Source: Candidatus Hydrogenedentota bacterium
GTDB lineage: Bacteria > Hydrogenedentota > Hydrogenedentia > Hydrogenedentales > CAITNO01
Reading direction: 5' to 3'
DNA length: 56,253 nt
Assembly: GCA_012730105.1 (NCBI GenBank)
Contig: JAAYBJ010000053.1
Span: forward strand, 1 to 56,253
In this document: positions 30,719 to 40,479 of the stretch, piece by piece
How positions within the stretch are numbered: position 1 is the first letter of the stretch
How the letters are laid out: each line of letters starts with the position of its first letter
The notes under the pieces: generated by a model
Told to the model about the DNA's origin: nothing
What the model saw: only the letters and a program-made list of their open reading frames with translations
Database searches by the model: none
Program-made: the position numbers and the translations under genes

Positions 30719-30784
30719 ATGTTGTGCCTTTGTTTTGGAACTGGTGTTCTGCAAAAATAGTTTACAGATGTGTCAGGAAAAGTT

Positions 30785-33499
30785 ATGTTGGGTTTCGGTT
30801 CAAAAAATACGCGTACCCAATCCCGAAAACGATTGGGCGAGCTCTTGCTGGAAGAAGGCCGCCTGCGCCCGGAGGACTTGAAGCAGGCCCTGGCACAACA
30901 GAATCGCAACGGGGGATTGCTGGGCGAGATACTGGTACAATCCAATCTGCTGGAACAGGACGCGCTTCTTGCATTTCTCATGAAGCTGCATGAATCGAGC
31001 GCGGTAAGCTTGTCTGACTACAATGTCGACGAACAGGCGGTCAGCCAGATTCCCGAACAGGTTTGCGAGAAACATTGTCTGCTGCCCATTGACAAACTGG
31101 GGCGCATCCTTACCATGGCCATGGTAGATCCCCTGGACACGCAAGCGCTGGAGCAAGCACAATCCTATTGTCCCGATGTGCGCCTGAAACCCCTGCTATG
31201 CAGCTGGCAGGATTTTCAGGAGGTATTTAAACGCATCTATGGCAGGGTGCCTCAAAAACCCAAGGGCCTGGAAAATCGGTATGCCCATCTGGACGTGGCC
31301 GCGTTGACCGGACAGGCGACCGGCTCCGAGACGTCCACGGCTCCCGACGCGCTTAACGAGGACACGAAGTTGAATGCCGAACTGGACGTCCTTCCCCTTC
31401 CCGGGCGAAGCGCGGGGACGCCCGGTGAAAGCGGCGTTTTTGAAACCCCCGATTTTGAAGCGGAGGCGGCAGTTGCCGACAGGCCGCCCCGCGCGTTGTA
31501 CGGCATGCCGCTTTCGAGCGAGGATTTTTCCGCGGGCATCCGGGAACTGGCACGGGCGGTGCAGCACAGTATTGATGATGCCCTGGGCTCCCTGGCCGCT
31601 TCCAGGACCAAACAGGCGTCCGGCGCTGAAAGTTCCCCGGAACAGGTGACGGCCGCGATACAACAGGCCCTGCAGAATACCGTGAACGTTTTCGCGGACG
31701 AATTGCGCCTTGAGCGGGAAGCGCTGGTGGTACACCTGACGTCGACACAAGCCGGAACGCCCGCGGAGACAGGACCATCGGTTGCGGAAGTGGCGGAAAT
31801 TGTCGGCGACCGCCTGAACGACTCTCTGCGGCAGATGCTGGAAGCGGTTTCCGGGCAAACCCGGCAGGTGGGCGAGGCCCTCCAGGAACTGAGCCGCGCG
31901 CGGACAGACGCGCATCCTGCTGCCGAGCTGGGCAACACTTTGAAGGAAGCGGTGGCGGATGCCGCGCGGCAATCCGCGGCCGCCCTGACGGAAACCCTGC
32001 GTCAGTTCCTTGAAGCGAAGGAAGAATCCGCATCCAGCGGAACACCCGACCCCATGCGAATGGCGGAAGCCATTCGCGACGGAGTCAGCGCCGTGTTGAG
32101 CGATGCGCTGGAAGCCATGTCCAGGCAGATTCAAGACCAGGCGGAACGCCACCAGCAACATCTCGCCGCCCTGCCGCCGCCCCCGGATTTCGAAGGGGTG
32201 GCGAAAAGCCTGCGGGATGAATTGGCCGCGGGACTGGATGCCCGGCTGGAACTGCTGTCCCAGGGTGTAAAGTCTTTTCTGGAACAGAATGGGGCCGCCC
32301 ACGACGGGCACATTGAACAACTGGCACGTGCCATGCGGGAAAGCATTCTGACCGCTGTGGCTTCCAGCGAAAAAGCCCAGGCGCAACAGGAGAGCCGGCT
32401 CGCTAAAATTGTGGAGTCAAGCCTGTCCGCCATCGCCGGAAACAAGGATGCCGGGCAGGGCGAGCTGGCGCGTGTCGCCGAGGCCATCCTGAGTTCCATT
32501 GAGCATGATAAAATTTCCCAATCGGAAAAACAGGATCAGCTCGCGCAAATCGCCCAGGCCGCGCTGGAATCCGTCCGGCAGACCGCCCAGCTGATTGAGG
32601 CGCACACGGTGGCGGAAAACAACCGCAATGACATGATGCGGCAACGGGAGCGCCTGCACGCGTCGGTCACCCCGTTTAACCCGGGAGCCGATCCCGCGCC
32701 GGAATATTACGCCGAGTCCGACAGCCGCGTTCGTGAGGAACTGGATTCGGAGCGGCCCCTTCATACCCTGACTTTTCAGAATTTCTTTTCCGGCGAATCC
32801 AATGCGTTCGTTGTAAATCTTGCCAAAGCGGCAGCCGCCGCGCCGGGCGGCGAATACAACCCTTTGTTCCTGTACGGTGCGGTCGGCCTGGGGAAAACAC
32901 ACCTTGTCAGCGCCATTGGCAATGATATTCTCGCCCGAACCGCCCAAGACAAAAAACACCCCCCCGCGCGGGTCGGCTATCTGTCGGCAAGCCATTTCGC
33001 GCGGCGGCTCGCCGCCGCGGCCGCAGACAATTCCCTGGAACTCTTCCGGGACAACTACTGCCACTGGGATGTCCTGATCCTGGACGATATTCAATTTCTC
33101 GGCGGACGCGTTGATGCCCAGGAGGAATTTTTTCATATCTTCAACGTACTGCTGCAGTCCGGACGGCAGATTATTATTGCGGGGGACAAGCCCCCGGACA
33201 AACTCGGCATGCTCGAACAGCGCCTGATCTCCCGTTTCGCCAGCGGCATTGTGGTAGAAGTGAAAGCGCCGGAATGGGAAACCCGGATGAAAATACTTCG
33301 CCATATCACGCAAGGTGCGAAAACAAAAGTCACGGACGACATTCTGTCCCTGATTGCGTTGCGTGTGGATAACGATATTCGCAAAATGATAGGAGCTTTG
33401 CGTAAAATTATCGCTTACGCGCGATTGCAGGGCGATACTATAACTATGGAAGAAGCGCAAAATATCCTCAGTCATCTCAATGCACATGAAGCGGCATAA
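30785..33499 (+). CDS. MshEN-type N-terminal domain fused via helical repeats to a DnaA/Hda-like AAA+ domain
   Basis: The product is 904 aa from ATG 30785 (AGGA upstream; GTG 30770 is an alternative). Residues 13-153 are the N-terminal domain of PilB/GspE/MshE-type ATPases, with the c-di-GMP-type motif RLGELLLEEG-x6-L-x3-L-x2-Q intact and a degenerate second copy, then IDKLGRILTMAMVDPLD. Residues ~160-655 are a Gln/Ala/Glu-rich helical linker with degenerate repeats (LARVAEAILSSIE, LAQIAQAALESV). Residues ~657-900 are a DnaA domain III: TFQNFFSGESNAF, Walker A GAVGLGKTH (~698-706), Walker B LILDDIQFLGG, LEQRLISRFASG, and DIRKMIGALRKIIAYA as sensor 2. DnaA domain IV is missing, as in Hda. The cotranscribed pilB and pilT suggest a pilus-motor role. 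Confidence 0.88.
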   Translation: MLGFGSKNTRTQSRKRLGELLLEEGRLRPEDLKQALAQQNRNGGLLGEILVQSNLLEQDALLAFLMKLHESSAVSLSDYNVDEQAVSQIPEQVCEKHCLLPIDKLGRILTMAMVDPLDTQALEQAQSYCPDVRLKPLLCSWQDFQEVFKRIYGRVPQKPKGLENRYAHLDVAALTGQATGSETSTAPDALNEDTKLNAELDVLPLPGRSAGTPGESGVFETPDFEAEAAVADRPPRALYGMPLSSEDFSAGIRELARAVQHSIDDALGSLAASRTKQASGAESSPEQVTAAIQQALQNTVNVFADELRLEREALVVHLTSTQAGTPAETGPSVAEVAEIVGDRLNDSLRQMLEAVSGQTRQVGEALQELSRARTDAHPAAELGNTLKEAVADAARQSAAALTETLRQFLEAKEESASSGTPDPMRMAEAIRDGVSAVLSDALEAMSRQIQDQAERHQQHLAALPPPPDFEGVAKSLRDELAAGLDARLELLSQGVKSFLEQNGAAHDGHIEQLARAMRESILTAVASSEKAQAQQESRLAKIVESSLSAIAGNKDAGQGELARVAEAILSSIEHDKISQSEKQDQLAQIAQAALESVRQTAQLIEAHTVAENNRNDMMRQRERLHASVTPFNPGADPAPEYYAESDSRVREELDSERPLHTLTFQNFFSGESNAFVVNLAKAAAAAPGGEYNPLFLYGAVGLGKTHLVSAIGNDILARTAQDKKHPPARVGYLSASHFARRLAAAAADNSLELFRDNYCHWDVLILDDIQFLGGRVDAQEEFFHIFNVLLQSGRQIIIAGDKPPDKLGMLEQRLISRFASGIVVEVKAPEWETRMKILRHITQGAKTKVTDDILSLIALRVDNDIRKMIGALRKIIAYARLQGDTITMEEAQNILSHLNAHEAA

Positions 33500-33595: not shown

Positions 33596-35326
33596 ATGGC
33601 CATAAAGATGCACAAGAAACGGCTGCCCGAAATGTTGCTGGAAGAAGGTCTGGTAACCAAGGCCCAGCTGGAAGAATGTATGGAACTGCATCGAAGCAGC
33701 GGCCAGAGCCTTCCCTTGCTCCTTGTGGGCATGGGCTACCTCAGCGAAGCGGAAATGGTTGTCGCCTACTCTGAAAACCTGAGCGTTCCCCACATACGTG
33801 TCGCCAACTGCAGCATCTCCAAAGAAGTGCTTGCCCAAGTGCCGGAAACGCTTGCGCGCCAGTACCTGATGCTTCCCGTGTCGATTACGGGTAACACGTT
33901 GACACTGGCGATGGCCGATCCGCTGAATATTATGGCGATAGACGATGTCCGGATGGTCACGCGCTATGAAATTGAACCGGTAGTGGCCATGATATCGGAA
34001 CTGCGCGACGCCATTGATCGTCTATATGGCGGCGGCAAGGCGGCGGACCTGTATAAGACGATTATGAGCACGACCGAAAATCGTGAGGCCGACCTGGACG
34101 CCTTTGAAATCGGCAAGGAAGAGGTGGAGAACCTTTCGGAGCTTGAAGCGGGCGCGGATGATGAGCCGATCAGGCGACTAGTGAGGCTGATTCTGTATAC
34201 AGGCTTGGAGCGGGCCGCCAGCGACATTCACATTGAACCATTTGAAAAAGCGGTGCGCATCCGTTACCGCATAGACGGCGCCCTGGAAGAGGCCATGTCA
34301 CCGCCCAAGACCCTGCATCCCAACCTGGTTGCCCGCCTGAAAATACTTGCCGGATGCCGCATTGACGAACACCGTCTTCCCCAGGACGGCCGCAGCCGCA
34401 TGCGCTACAATGACCGTGACGTGGATTTCCGCGTTGCTTTTCTGCCCACCAAGTATGGAGAAAAAGTGGTGCTACGCGTATTGGACCAGGGCTCGCTCAG
34501 CCTTGACCTGGACAACCTGGGATTTGAACCGCAGCCCATGGAAGCGTTTCGGGAAGCCCTTAAAATGCCGCACGGCATGATTCTGATGACCGGCCCGACG
34601 GGCAGCGGCAAAACAACCACCCTATACAGCGCCCTGCACCGGCTCAACAAAGTCACCACCAATATCGTTACCGTTGAAGATCCCATCGAGTATGAAATGT
34701 ACGGGGTCAACCAGGTCCAGATAAGGCAGAAGATCGGTTTCACTTTTGCCGAGGCCCTGCGTCAGATTCTGCGCCAGGACCCGGACATCGTGATGGTGGG
34801 CGAGATTCGAGACAGTGAGACCGCCGACGTGGCAGTCAAGGCAGCCCTGACCGGCCATCTGGTCTTAAGCACCCTCCATACGAATGACGCCTCCGGCGTT
34901 TTCCCCCGACTGATTGACATGGGTGTTGAACCCTTCCTGGTGCAGTCCTCCGTGGCCCTTGCCGCCGCGCAGCGCTTGCTCAAGCGGGTATGCTCCGAGT
35001 GCCGGCAAAGTATCAAGGTGCCCCAGGACGTGCTGGAGCGCATACAGTACAAGCCGTTCAACTATATTGAGAAAACGAACTTCGTACGCGGCGGCGGCTG
35101 CTCAAAATGCAAGGAAACGGGATACAAGGGCCGCGTCGCCGTGGTGGAAGTCATGCTGAACTGGCCGGAGATCCAGCCACTGGTGCTGCGCCGGGCCTCA
35201 GGGCATGAAATTAAAACGCAGGCGATTCAATGCGGCATGAAAACGCTCCGCCAAAACTCGCTGGCAAAAGCCGCCAAGGGCATTACCACGATTGACCAGG
35301 TGCTGGAACACACCATAGCGGACTAA
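33596..35326 (+). CDS. pilB: Type IV pilus assembly ATPase PilB (GspE/PulE family)
   Basis: The product is 576 aa. PilB hexamers drive pilus extension from the cytoplasmic face. The N-terminal MshEN-like domain (8-145) is degenerate: the motif reads RLPEMLLEEG with Pro for the usual Gly, and His for the last Gln. The ATPase core has GPTGSGKTTT (Walker A, ~332-341), the Asp box around VTVEDPIEYEM, Walker B GEIRDSETAD and the His box TGHLVLSTLHTND. A zinc site follows (CSECRQ and CSKCKETGYKG, ~465 and ~502), typical of PilB rather than PilT. CAGGAGGA 6 nt before ATG 33596 fixes the start. It lies 96 bp after the MshEN-DnaA gene. Confidence 0.93.
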   Translation: MAIKMHKKRLPEMLLEEGLVTKAQLEECMELHRSSGQSLPLLLVGMGYLSEAEMVVAYSENLSVPHIRVANCSISKEVLAQVPETLARQYLMLPVSITGNTLTLAMADPLNIMAIDDVRMVTRYEIEPVVAMISELRDAIDRLYGGGKAADLYKTIMSTTENREADLDAFEIGKEEVENLSELEAGADDEPIRRLVRLILYTGLERAASDIHIEPFEKAVRIRYRIDGALEEAMSPPKTLHPNLVARLKILAGCRIDEHRLPQDGRSRMRYNDRDVDFRVAFLPTKYGEKVVLRVLDQGSLSLDLDNLGFEPQPMEAFREALKMPHGMILMTGPTGSGKTTTLYSALHRLNKVTTNIVTVEDPIEYEMYGVNQVQIRQKIGFTFAEALRQILRQDPDIVMVGEIRDSETADVAVKAALTGHLVLSTLHTNDASGVFPRLIDMGVEPFLVQSSVALAAAQRLLKRVCSECRQSIKVPQDVLERIQYKPFNYIEKTNFVRGGGCSKCKETGYKGRVAVVEVMLNWPEIQPLVLRRASGHEIKTQAIQCGMKTLRQNSLAKAAKGITTIDQVLEHTIAD

Positions 35327-35566: not shown

Positions 35567-36646
35567 ATGAAGAAGTTGGACATTAGGGATCTCCTGATAA
35601 AAACGGTCCAGGAAGGCGCCAGCGACCTGCATATCTGCGCCGGTATTCCGCCCATGATTCGCGTCAATGGAAGTGTTGACCCCCTGGAAGGCTACAAACG
35701 CCTGACCGCGGAAGAGACCCAGGACCTGGTCTACAGCGTAATGAATGAGGAACAGATCGCGGAATTTGAAACGGAAAAAGAATGCGACATGTCCTTCGGC
35801 CTTGAGGGATTCAGCCGGTTCCGCCTCAACGTGTACCGGGACCGGGGCTCGGTTGTCGGGGCATTTCGTGCCATACCGTTCAGTATTCTTTCCTTTGAAG
35901 AACTCGGGCTTCCCCGGGTCATCGCGGAATTCGCCAACCGGCCCTCGGGGCTGGTGCTGATATGCGGCCCCACCGGCTGCGGCAAATCGACCACGCTGGC
36001 CACCATCATCAACAAAATTAACAACGAACGCAAATGCCACATCATAACCGTGGAAGATCCCATTGAATACCTGCACCATCACCGCATGGCCATCATCAAC
36101 CAGCGCGAGGTGTACGCGGACACGAAATCCTTTGGCGCGGCGCTGAAACACGTTTTGCGCCAGGATCCGGACGTGATCCTCATCGGCGAGATGCGCGACA
36201 CGGAAACCATCCAGGCAGCCCTGACTGTGGCTGAAACGGGCCATCTCGCCTTCGCCACACTGCACACCAACGATGCCCTGCAAACGATTAACCGCATCGT
36301 GGACGTCTTTCCCATGGCTCAGCAGGCCCAGGTGCGCACGCAGCTGTCTTTTGTTCTTGAAGGTGTCGCCGTGCAGCAGCTCATTCCGCGAGCTGACGGC
36401 AAGGGGCGCGTGCTGGGCATGGAAATCATGATACCCAACCCGGCAATACGCTCCCTGATCCGCACGCAGAAACTGGAGCAGATACCCAGCATGATTGAAA
36501 TCGGCAAGGGAGAAGGCATGATCACCATGAACCAATCCCTGTACCGTTTGCTGCGCCGGGGCATAATCTCCACCGATACGGCCTTCAAGCGCAGCATGAA
36601 TCCGGAAGGTCTCCAGAACCTCATCAACAAGGCGAATGCGGAATAA
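35567..36646 (+). CDS. pilT: Type IV pilus retraction ATPase PilT
   Basis: The product is 359 aa, the normal PilT length. PilT depolymerises the pilus and powers twitching motility. The N-terminal PAS-like domain has DLHICAGIPPMIRVNG. The ATPase core has GPTGCGKSTT (Walker A, ~133), VEDPIEYLHHH, GEMRDTETIQAAL and TGHLAFATLHTND. The C-terminal AIR-L-I-R motif, needed for retraction in studied PilT proteins, is present as NPAIRSLIR with the following IPSMIEIGK. There is no Cys zinc site, unlike PilB. It follows pilB in the same direction. Confidence 0.94.
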   Translation: MKKLDIRDLLIKTVQEGASDLHICAGIPPMIRVNGSVDPLEGYKRLTAEETQDLVYSVMNEEQIAEFETEKECDMSFGLEGFSRFRLNVYRDRGSVVGAFRAIPFSILSFEELGLPRVIAEFANRPSGLVLICGPTGCGKSTTLATIINKINNERKCHIITVEDPIEYLHHHRMAIINQREVYADTKSFGAALKHVLRQDPDVILIGEMRDTETIQAALTVAETGHLAFATLHTNDALQTINRIVDVFPMAQQAQVRTQLSFVLEGVAVQQLIPRADGKGRVLGMEIMIPNPAIRSLIRTQKLEQIPSMIEIGKGEGMITMNQSLYRLLRRGIISTDTAFKRSMNPEGLQNLINKANAE

Positions 36647-36693: not shown

Positions 36694-38355
36694 ATGCAGT
36701 ACGACGCCAAAACGGGGTCGTCCCTGTCCGGCCGGACGCCTGCCGGCGGCGGGGAGGACAATTTTCCTTTCCACCTTCGTTTGGGAAAACGGGTGGTGGA
36801 CCTGTTTCAACCCGTTTACGACGGGTCGGTAATCTGGCTCTGGTATTTCGGTCTGGGGCGCGTGGCGGTGCTGCTGGTGGTCTTCATCGGCATTCCCAAA
36901 TCCAGCAATGCCCAGGAAGGGCTCGCCGCCCTCTTTCTGATTTTCTGTGCGGCGCTGGGGTGCAGCTCCTGGTACCTGCTCACCCTATACAGGGAACAGA
37001 TTGTCAATGCGACCCTGACCTGGACCCAGGTGCTTCTGGATTTTTGTGTCGTTGCCTTTACCGTAAGCCTGACGGGAGGCGAGTCAAGCTACTACACCTT
37101 TCTCCTCGTAATCGTGATCCTGGAGGCGGGCATTCTGCTGGGTATCATTCATGCCTTCTCTTTCGCGATGGTGTCCTTGCTGTTCCTGTTTCTTTCGGGG
37201 CTGCCCGGTTCCTACAATGCCGCCAGCCTGCTCCCTTACTGGTACAACCTGCTTATACAATGGATTGTTATGGTAGCGGCGGCATTCATCAGCGGATACT
37301 GGAATCAGCGCATAGGCCGCCTCAAAAGTTTCCAACGGGAAATACTCGACAATATGGTGAGCGGGTTCCTGATCTGTGACAAAAATGGAACCGTTATCCT
37401 GGTGAACAGGGCCGCGTGCGCCATTCTGGATATGGATGAAAGCAAAATCCTGAACCGTCCTGTGGCTGAAATTCTACCTTGCGCTTCGGGAACCGAATGT
37501 CCCGTGGTAACCGCCATACGCGACGGGCGTGATTATGTGCGTTATGAATTCCTGTGGCAGCCCGAACAGGGCGGTCCGAAAATGCTCGGACTGACCACCA
37601 ACCGTATTTGTGATTTCCGGGGCGGGCTGATGTCGTTGATCGCCGTCTTTCAGGACCTGACGGAAACCGTTGCCCTGCGCCAGGCCTTGCGGCAGCAGGA
37701 CCGCATGGCCGCCGTGGGTGAGTCAGCCGCGGAATTCGCCCATGAAATCCGCAATCCCCTGGCAGCGCTGCGCAGCGCCGTGGACGAAATGCAGCGGGGC
37801 ATCGCCTCGCCGGACCTGACAAAACGCTTGTGCGGCATTGCGCTGCGAGAATCGGAACACTTGAACAACATTGTGAGCGGGTTCCTTGAATTTGCCCGCA
37901 ACCCGGAGCCTGACCAAAACCCCGTGGATATCAACAGCCTGTTAGCGGCCACGGCCGCCGCTTTTGAACAGACCCACCCGGAAATAACCATTACGTTGAA
38001 CTGTGACGAATCCCACCCGACCACTCCGGGCGATACGACTCGGCTTCGGCAGATGTGCGACAACATCCTGCGTAACAGTGCGGAGGCCATGAGCGGGAAG
38101 GGAGAAATCGTTGTTGCCTCGCGGGTCATAGGGAACCATGTCGAAATCCGATTTGACGATACGGGCAAGGGCATTTCACCGGACAAGGCCATGAGGATTT
38201 TTGAACCCTTCTATACGGAAAAGGAAAACGGCATCGGCATGGGACTGGCCGTGTGCATGCGGATTGTCACGGCGTATAACGGCGACATTCGCGCGGCGGC
38301 GCGGCCAGGCGGGGGCCTGTCCATGATTGTCCGACTGCCGCGCCTTGCCGCGTAA
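36694..38355 (+). CDS. pilS: PilS-like sensor histidine kinase
   Basis: The product is 553 aa. An N-terminal block of about six membrane helices (roughly 50-205) has no large periplasmic loop, as in PilS. A PAS domain follows (about 220-335, GFLICDKNGTVILVNRA), then the dimerisation/phosphoacceptor helix with His350 in EFAHEIRNPLAALRSAV. The ATP-binding domain has the N box DNILRNSAEAM, DDTGKGIS and GIGMGLAVCMRIV. In Pseudomonas PilS senses pilin in the membrane and controls PilR. The start has a poor ribosome site. It is 9 codons before its partner response regulator. Confidence 0.9.
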   Translation: MQYDAKTGSSLSGRTPAGGGEDNFPFHLRLGKRVVDLFQPVYDGSVIWLWYFGLGRVAVLLVVFIGIPKSSNAQEGLAALFLIFCAALGCSSWYLLTLYREQIVNATLTWTQVLLDFCVVAFTVSLTGGESSYYTFLLVIVILEAGILLGIIHAFSFAMVSLLFLFLSGLPGSYNAASLLPYWYNLLIQWIVMVAAAFISGYWNQRIGRLKSFQREILDNMVSGFLICDKNGTVILVNRAACAILDMDESKILNRPVAEILPCASGTECPVVTAIRDGRDYVRYEFLWQPEQGGPKMLGLTTNRICDFRGGLMSLIAVFQDLTETVALRQALRQQDRMAAVGESAAEFAHEIRNPLAALRSAVDEMQRGIASPDLTKRLCGIALRESEHLNNIVSGFLEFARNPEPDQNPVDINSLLAATAAAFEQTHPEITITLNCDESHPTTPGDTTRLRQMCDNILRNSAEAMSGKGEIVVASRVIGNHVEIRFDDTGKGISPDKAMRIFEPFYTEKENGIGMGLAVCMRIVTAYNGDIRAAARPGGGLSMIVRLPRLAA

Positions 38356-38376: not shown

Positions 38377-39771
38377 ATGACAGCACGACAATTCAGGGTC
38401 CTGGTCGTGGATGACGATCCGGGGCTGCGGGAAGTACTTGAAATCGTACTGGCCAATGCCGGTTACGATGTGTCTTCCGCGAAATCCGTCGAGGAAGCCG
38501 TCAAGATCCTGGAAAACCTGCTGATTGACGTTATATTGACGGACTTATACATGGGCAAGGATCGCCTGGCGGGACTGCGCCTGCTTCAATACCTGAAGGA
38601 AAACCAGCCGGAAACGCCCGCCCTTATGATCACGGGACACGGGAGCATCGAATCCGCTGTGGAAGCCATGCGCCTTGGCGCGCTCGACTACCTGCAAAAA
38701 CCGTTCAAGAGCAATGAGGAAGTGCTGCTCCGTGTTGCCCGGGCCGTGGAAAAACGTGTCCTGCTGCGGGAAAACGAGGCGTTTCGTCTCGACCAGTCGC
38801 GTAAGGCCCGCCTGGATGCGATTGTGGGCAACAGTCCCAAATTCAGCAAGGTACTTGACATGGTCCGCCGCGTCGCCGCGTTGCCCAGCACCGTGGCAAT
38901 CAACGGGGAAAGCGGAGTGGGCAAGGAGTTGATCGCCCGGGCCTTGCACACCCTCAGCCCGAGGTCAGGGAAGCCCTTTGTCGCCATCAATTGCGGCGGT
39001 ATCCCGGAAACCCTGCTGGAAAGCGAACTTTTCGGCTATAAAAAAGGCGCGTTCACCGGCGCCAACCAGGACAAAGAAGGCCTCTTTGTCGCGGCGGACG
39101 GCGGTACCCTTTTCCTGGACGAAATCGGCGAAATGCCGGCTTCCCTGCAGGTTAAATTGCTTCGTGTTCTTGACGACGGTTGCGTTACGCCCGTGGGCGG
39201 GCTTTCCTCGACGCGCGTGGATGTGCGTGTGCTTTCCGCGACCAACCGGGACCTGGCCGAAATGGTGGACAGCGGCGGTTTCCGCAAAGACCTGTATTAC
39301 CGGCTGAATGTGATTCCCATTACCGTGCCGCCTCTGCGGGAAAGAATCGAGGATATTCCCCTGCTTGCCCGCCACCTGATAGCGCGTCATGCAAAGAACA
39401 TCGGCTGCGAAGAAAAGGCGCTCTCCCCGGAAGCGCTCGAGGCGCTTACCCAGTATTCCTGGCCCGGAAACGTGCGTGAAATGAGCAATGTCCTCGAACG
39501 CGCTCTGGGGCTCAGCGAGCAGGCTGACATTCGCCTGGAAGACCTGCCGTCCTACCTGCTGAGTGGCCCGCCTCTGGACCGCCCGGAAGCGACTGTTCTC
39601 CATGAAAGCGGCATTGACCTGGAAGCGCTGGTGGCGGAATTCGAGATGGACTATATCCGACAGGCTCTGGAACGAAGCCATTATTCCCAGCAGAAAACCG
39701 CGAAACTCCTGGGACTGACTCCCAGAACCCTGCGCTACCGGCTGGAAAAATATAATCTTTCCAGCGATTAG
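38377..39771 (+). CDS. pilR: PilR-like sigma-54-dependent response regulator
   Basis: The product is 464 aa. The receiver domain (7-120) has the acidic pocket VDDDPG and phosphoacceptor Asp56 in [10 protein letters not shown]. The AAA+ domain (~145-375) has GESGVGKE (Walker A), GAFTGA for sigma-54 contact and [12 protein letters not shown] (Walker B). The C-terminal Fis-type helix-turn-helix is [23 protein letters not shown] 38377 follows GGGAAG; the TTG at 38365 was set aside. It activates sigma-54 promoters, classically the major pilin gene, which is not in the window. Confidence 0.93.
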
Positions 39772-39846: not shown

Positions 39847-40479
39847 ATGAAGCGATCTTTTGTGGTGCTGGCATGCGTGGTCCTGGTTACCAGTTTGGGC
39901 GGTTTGGGATGCGCTCGGGCGGCGCGTGATACCACGGGATTCGCCCTTCGCGAGGAAACCGTGTTGAACGCCCCCTTTGAAGACGTGTGGCATGCCGTAA
40001 AACGGGTGGCGCGCGAACAGGGCTATGAGGTTTATACCCGTGATAAGCGTGGTACTTTTGTCATTTATACGCCCATGAAACGCATCCTTTGGACCCAGCC
40101 CCGCCGGAGCAAATTCACGATTGAATTGGCGCAAAAATCCCCCGAAGAAACAGCGATCTCCATTGAGAGCATCCGCCAGATCTACGGGGTAACCCTGTTG
40201 ACCCATCCGAACTGGCATGACAGGAAGCAGTCGGATCCGGCTCCTTCCCAGGCGCTACTGGAAGGTATTCAGGCTAAACTTGCCGAGGGTGTGGAGAACG
40301 AAGACCTGGAAAGTGAAACGCCTGAAGCGCCTGAAACACCGGTAGTGGAAGTGCCCGCCGCCCCGCTCCTGGAGACACAGCCTTTGCCGGAGGAAGGTTC
40401 CGTGGATCTGGAAGAGGCGCCTGCGGCCCCGGTTTCCGACGATGACAAGGCCGCCGCTGAAGCGGCAACCGTCAACTAA
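39847..40479 (+). CDS. Putative exported lipoprotein at the end of the pilus operon
   Basis: The product is 210 aa. A hydrophobic leader ends in LGGLGC (Cys22), a loose lipobox with Gly at -3, so lipidation is uncertain. Residues ~30-125 form a compact alpha/beta domain (FEDVWHAVKRVAREQGYEVY, GTFVIYTPMKR), in the style of small outer-membrane lipoproteins that measure or scaffold. The last ~75 residues are Pro/Glu/Ala-rich and probably disordered. AGGGAG precedes the ATG at an 8-nt spacing. It comes 75 bp after pilR, so it may belong to the pilus unit. The family is not recognised. Confidence 0.75.
   Translation: MKRSFVVLACVVLVTSLGGLGCARAARDTTGFALREETVLNAPFEDVWHAVKRVAREQGYEVYTRDKRGTFVIYTPMKRILWTQPRRSKFTIELAQKSPEETAISIESIRQIYGVTLLTHPNWHDRKQSDPAPSQALLEGIQAKLAEGVENEDLESETPEAPETPVVEVPAAPLLETQPLPEEGSVDLEEAPAAPVSDDDKAAAEAATVN

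Follow-up and report, generated by a model that had tools for sequence, protein, structure and literature searches.

The fusion gene and its operon

The window analysed here is a stretch of 56,253 nucleotides whose phylum label rests on three named relatives found by contig scan, all of them Candidatus Hydrogenedentota. On its forward strand, a single open frame of 904 codons (30785..33499) encodes an MshEN-DnaA fusion protein; were translation to begin at a GTG at 30770 instead, its N-terminus would be five residues longer. The genes that follow on the same strand are pilB (33596..35326), which encodes MshEN and T2SSE domains, pilT (35567..36646; PF00437), a PAS histidine kinase in the PilS position (36694..38355) and an NtrC/PilR-type sigma-54 response regulator (38377..39771), each assigned by Pfam match and synteny. 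A small lipoprotein-like gene (39847-40479) lies after the response regulator, again on the same strand. The T2SSE domain (PF00437) is absent from the fusion itself and present in the next gene. The earlier note had placed the fusion at the head of an operon with pilB and pilT, and this arrangement holds, as both genes are downstream on the same strand in the window and the order is conserved across loci. Of the 41 Hydrogenedentota loci inspected, every one has pilB as the adjacent downstream gene in the same orientation, usually no more than 200 nt away, and most continue with pilT, then a PilS-like kinase and a PilR-like regulator.

An AF2 model of the full chain has two confident ends and a low-confidence middle: an MshEN domain at residues ~15-155 (pLDDT ~90), a linker at ~161-640 (30-75) and an AAA+ domain at ~661-898 (~95). 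The nearest solved structures are DnaA domain III (8bv3, 8btg, 2z4r) for the C-terminal end and the N-domains of MshE, PilB and PilF for the N-terminal end. The profiles PF05157 and PF00308 both match, and the C-terminus is domain III of DnaA. It is confirmed that an MshEN domain is joined to a DnaA domain III AAA+ module via a variable helical linker. Mis-assembly or chance fusion of two genes, the danger to which the earlier note had pointed, is excluded, as the same fusion is found in independent genomes.

The linker (residues 161-640; 31265..32704, forward strand) is predicted to be disordered to residue ~245 and then to form long amphipathic helices to ~625, with low model confidence. It had been described as a helical linker of roughly 500 residues; the long helices are present in the model of the window protein, but the length is not constant and ranges from 41 to 766 aa across the family. 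A transmembrane stretch was sought in the linker of the window protein and none was found, and the maximum 19-residue hydropathy of 1.2 rules out a membrane anchor there. Given this variable length and the lack of a membrane span in the window protein, the linker is likely to be a tether rather than an active part.

The MshEN and DnaA-type domains

The MshEN domain (residues 15-155; 30827..31249, forward strand) is matched by PF05157 at residues 73-154 (E = 1.9e-14, 53.8 bits against a Pfam cut-off of 23.1) and by the NCBIfam model NF053729, "cyclic di-GMP-binding domain, MshE-related", at residues 16-65 (50.5 bits, cut-off 38). With both scores above cut-off, the PilB/MshE-type N-terminal domain reported earlier is sustained, and the N-terminal end of the AF2 model is matched by Foldseek to MshE bound to c-di-GMP (5htl). 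The 53-residue c-di-GMP motif pair, delimited by NF053729 and by motif scoring, occupies residues 16-68 (30830..30988). We scored it against the RLG..L..L..Q pair as defined in the main text of Wang et al. 2016 (PMC5013675). The window fusion keeps six of the six key residues of motif I and four of the six of motif II, in which Arg and Gln are both replaced by Leu, so that the second Gln is missing. Fusions keep on average 5.1 and 3.7 of the six key residues of motifs I and II respectively; the Arg of motif II is replaced in every fusion, mostly by Phe, while its Gly is kept and its Gln is retained in 31 of 37. The motif I Gly is present in 36 of 37 fusions, compared with 13 of 40 PilB proteins of the same operons. 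In most genomes the operon PilB is without the motif glycines, and in the PilB of the window the motif is degraded (RLP.., with H and N for its two Gln). Judged by these residues, the putative c-di-GMP site is better kept in the fusion than in the adjoining PilB.

Replacement of the motif II Arg by Phe or Leu is not disqualifying, because in the GSPII-B domain of Thermus thermophilus PilF both motif arginines are replaced, by Lys and Leu, and c-di-GMP is still bound at 6 nM (PMC11731258). The GSPII-A domain of PilF, with small deviations from the motif, does not bind c-di-GMP (PMC12002112). Thus, binding of c-di-GMP by the fusion is plausible rather than proven. The genome of the window encodes two GGDEF proteins. 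MshEN domains also occur with a cyclic-nucleotide-binding domain (PF00027) in Hydrogenedentota (L195 5207-6913, L199 3733-5124, L200 4298-5704), and this architecture is present in the window's own genome too.

The DnaA domain III-type AAA+ module (residues 661-904; 32765..33496, forward strand) is matched by PF00308 (Bac_DnaA) at residues 661-824 (E = 6.4e-50, 169.9 bits against a Pfam cut-off of 23). Its end of the AF2 model superposes on DnaA domain III 8bv3 with a target TM of 0.89 at 2.1 A (Foldseek), and its best structural neighbours are the DnaA proteins of B. subtilis, T. maritima and A. aeolicus. No domain IV follows, as the frame stops ~6 residues past the AAA+ lid. The same genome encodes a separate complete DnaA with a domain IV signature (L001, G000:C258). 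A weak DnaA-like match is also present in this genome (L003 739-2031, G000:C328), and a further DnaA-like copy, in which no domain IV signature was detected, occurs in another (L262 423-1778, G017:C732).

We compared residues of 23 fusions with those of 32 canonical DnaAs. Walker A (GAVGLGKTH, residues 698-706; 32876..32902) has the invariant K704, and Walker B (VLILDD, residues 763-768; 33071..33088) the invariant D767 and D768. The arginine finger R817 (33233..33235) aligns with R264 of B. subtilis DnaA, which corresponds to R285 of E. coli DnaA; sensor II R866 (33380..33382) aligns with B. subtilis R313. The Lys of Walker A, the two Asp of Walker B, the arginine finger and sensor II are present in 23 of 23 fusions and the sensor I Asp in 22 of 23. 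A DnaA domain III with Walker A, Walker B and sensor motifs and without domain IV, as first described from the sequence, is therefore what PF00308, Foldseek and the residue comparison agree on. Such invariance means that an ATP-dependent inter-subunit function has been selected for. A relic, in which MshEN merely docks and the AAA+ fold is a spacer without ATP-dependent function, is favoured by two Hydrogenedentota genomes, G019 and G027, in which MshEN and some of the linker remain and the AAA+ domain is missing; however, the catalytic residues, arginine finger and sensor II included, are invariant in 38 sequences with identities to the window protein down to 42%, which is unexpected for a spacer, and we consider this explanation highly improbable.

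Several positions that are near-invariant in canonical DnaA have been lost in the fusions, among them (B. subtilis numbering) the following: Ile190 is Ala or variable, Asn187 is Arg, Arg206 is Cys and Glu316 is Thr. The Lys222 position is mostly Arg, and Trp (W761 in the window protein) stands in place of Val/Leu in 22 of 23 fusions. The Ile190 position contacts ssDNA in B. subtilis DnaA. By this pattern of conservation, selection maintains the binding and hydrolysis of ATP and the sensing between subunits, and does not clearly maintain DNA contact. This bears on a role in pilus-mediated DNA uptake, in which incoming DNA would be gripped by the DnaA pore. DnaA domain III binds ssDNA, and other bacteria take up DNA by means of pili driven by pilT, but with Ile190, Arg206 and Asn187 replaced and no domain IV, such a role appears quite improbable.

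The C-terminus had also been labelled Hda-like. Here the profiles differ: the DnaA model TIGR00362 scores 276.9 bits (below its equivalog cut-off of 343.9), compared with 90.1 bits for the Hda model TIGR03420 (cut-off 194.8), and a beta-clamp-binding motif N-terminal to the AAA+ module was found in none of the 41 linkers examined. Hda identity is ruled out by this profile score and the absent motif. The same observations weigh on a link between replication and pili, in which the module would co-assemble with DnaA via the AAA+ interface, or stimulate DnaA ATP hydrolysis as Hda does. The AAA+ interface residues are retained and the fold is close to that of DnaA; against this, the fusions form a clade apart from their own genomes' DnaAs and carry surface changes specific to their family, in addition to the profile preference for DnaA over Hda and the missing clamp motif. 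We regard this explanation as improbable, and the link between chromosome state and pili suggested in the earlier note is not upheld, given the lack of domain IV, the changed DNA-contact positions and the absence of the clamp-binding motif.

Distribution and descent of the fusion

A profile of the AAA+ part of the fusion (A1) was searched against 68 Hydrogenedentota genomes. A fusion copy scoring at least 319 bits was found in 54 of them, while full-length DnaA matches scored 240-285 bits, giving a clean split. In two further genomes a contig end truncates the fusion (G050 and G055, the latter with only the MshEN part visible), and the fusion is thus present in 56 of 68. Among the remainder, G019 and G027 retain MshEN and ~165-175 further residues, and the AAA+ part is gone; the truncated gene is directly before pilB-pilT-histidine kinase in G027, and on a different contig from pilB in G019. 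Two others (G008 and G013) have kept pilB, pilT, the kinase and the response regulator, with an unrelated oxidoreductase gene where the fusion would be. Since pilB-pilT persists where the AAA+ part, or even the entire gene, is missing, the motor has in the fusion an accessory component, which is what one would expect a regulator to be.

MshEN-DnaA fusions were also found in at least four phylum-level groups beyond Hydrogenedentota, here called B to E. All three genomes of group B (G091, G238, G294) encode a fusion of 435-447 aa with a linker of 40-55 aa, and the operon order (fusion-pilB-pilT-kinase-regulator) is that of Hydrogenedentota. The fusions of G091 and G238 form one clade with those of Hydrogenedentota (SH-aLRT 97). 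Among canonical DnaAs, that of G091 branches as the sister of the Hydrogenedentota proteins (92). Tree and synteny indicate that the fusions of the two groups share common descent, and the matching sisterhood makes vertical inheritance predating their split the simplest reading. An origin from the genome's own DnaA finds no support in the tree, which places the fusions with those of group B and not with Hydrogenedentota DnaA.

Group C (G196, G291) has a 507-aa fusion, with 47% identity over its whole length, that does not adjoin pilB. In group D (G215, G292, G293), several MshEN-DnaA proteins are encoded in a locus with a pilin, a prepilin peptidase (pilD) and pilB. The placement of groups C and D relative to DnaA has weak support in the tree, from which group E was left out. 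One protein of 1,993 aa in the group D pilus locus (L224 9942-15923) consists of MshEN, a DnaA AAA+ module, ~1,270 residues of probable helical repeats and a second DnaA AAA+ module.

Group E (G183, G324) has a fusion of 494 aa in a cluster ordered MglB-MglA-DUF4388-fusion-DUF4388. This setting favours the main rival to a c-di-GMP switch, namely a positioning scaffold in which the AAA+ oligomer, via MshEN and the long linker, would bring the motor to the pole or to active pili, much as in MglA/MglB polarity, with c-di-GMP sensing secondary. Also in its favour are the tandem DnaA-AAA+ proteins of G128 and G269, which have MglA and DUF4388 as neighbours, and the long, helical, length-variable linker of Hydrogenedentota. 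However, no MglA was found near the Hydrogenedentota loci examined (neighbourhoods only), and the group B fusion is almost without a linker; we consider a positioning scaffold unlikely, though less so than the other alternatives.

Other proteins with DnaA AAA+ modules were encountered. Two such modules in tandem are encoded at L226 5389-7494, L227 8927-11041, L228 9646-11685 and L229 9421-11886; the tandem proteins of G172, G128 and G269 have frames of 680-822 aa and no domain IV signature, and those of the last two genomes lie beside MglA and DUF4388/TPR proteins. At L274 7961-14395 and L275 7728-13097, proteins of ~1,790-2,145 aa end in a DnaA AAA+ module that is preceded by a very long N-region, which in L274 has TPR repeats and starts with a match to a CHC2 (DnaG-type) zinc finger. 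Three proteins (L203 1793-3652, L204 1237-3384 and L209 1657-3891; G275, G183, G139) share a common N-region, followed by a DnaA AAA+ module and a long C-part, with a zinc-ribbon-like motif in the C-part of two of them.

Proposed role and relation to known systems

The fusion lies directly before the pilus motor genes in two phylum-level groups, and it therefore seems that control of pili has enlisted a replication-type ATPase. This is one of the two readings first offered for the gene, and it fits that conserved position. Our preferred reading, in which we place about as much belief as doubt, is that the fusion is a dedicated regulator of the PilB/PilT motor, an oligomeric switch or scaffold that depends on ATP and responds to c-di-GMP. 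The MshEN domain would sense c-di-GMP, or dock on the pilus platform; the AAA+ module would form an ATP-dependent homo-oligomer, by analogy with DnaA domain III; and this oligomer could act as a switchable scaffold or adaptor that sets the assembly or activity of the motor. In favour of this reading are the operon position in two groups, the invariant ATPase and inter-subunit residues, the DnaA domain III fold, the nearly complete motif I and the two GGDEF proteins of the genome, and also the group D pilus locus and the group E MglB-MglA-DUF4388 cluster. Here we infer the c-di-GMP binding, the oligomerisation, the contact with PilB/PilT and the direction of effect. The group C fusion, away from pilB, and the operons of G008 and G013, which run without a fusion, are a counterpoint to a motor regulator, and the residues lost from motif II, set beside the failure of PilF GSPII-A to bind, weigh against c-di-GMP sensing.

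More broadly, we tentatively suggest, at somewhat less than even confidence, that DnaA-type AAA+ ATPases make up a widespread class of pilus and motility regulators that has gone unrecognised, and whose recruitment dates from the split of several phyla or earlier. Fused to MshEN or encoded beside MglA/MglB/DUF4388, they would build DnaA-style ATP-dependent assemblies on protein, not DNA, that control type IV pilus motors. To our knowledge, DnaA-clade AAA+ proteins of known function (DnaA, Hda, DnaC, IstB) work on DNA or in replication. If confirmed, a member that is inherited vertically and linked to pilB-pilT would be a replication engine used in a surface-motility machine; it would supply a missing layer in the setting of pilus activity by c-di-GMP and ATP, and provide concrete targets in poorly cultured phyla. 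Caution is needed with automatic annotation, which can call such fusions "DnaA".

In the open-access PMC literature, we found nothing relevant on the fusion family, on DnaA with pili or on MglA with DnaA, in keeping with the earlier statement that no described protein of this architecture with a function was known; an earlier listing in an architecture table is possible. Both domains are known singly; within that literature, we met no description of the family, of the operon that it shares or of how widely it occurs.

Compared with DnaA domain III (8bv3, 8btg, 2z4r; TIGR00362), the fold agrees within 1.7-2.1 A at 37-40% identity to the window protein, and Walker A/B, the sensor I Asp, the arginine finger and sensor II are kept; unlike DnaA, the fusion is without domains I-II and IV, has several DNA-contact residues changed and falls in a separate clade. 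Like Hda (TIGR03420; 3bos, 5x06), it is a DnaA-clade AAA+ protein without domain IV, but it has no clamp-binding motif, is 17-20% identical in the fold comparison and has a large N-terminus of MshEN and linker. MshEN effectors with non-motor outputs have been described, with REC, HD-GYP, CheA, CheX, cyclase and Ser/Thr kinase domains (Wang et al. 2016, PMC5013675). The fusion likewise carries MshEN as a putative sensory head on another domain, although the main text of that paper does not name DnaA as a partner. With the traffic ATPases PilB, MshE and PilF it shares the N-terminal MshEN (GSPII) domain and the setting of a pilus operon, but in place of the T2SSE motor it carries a DnaA-type AAA+ module.
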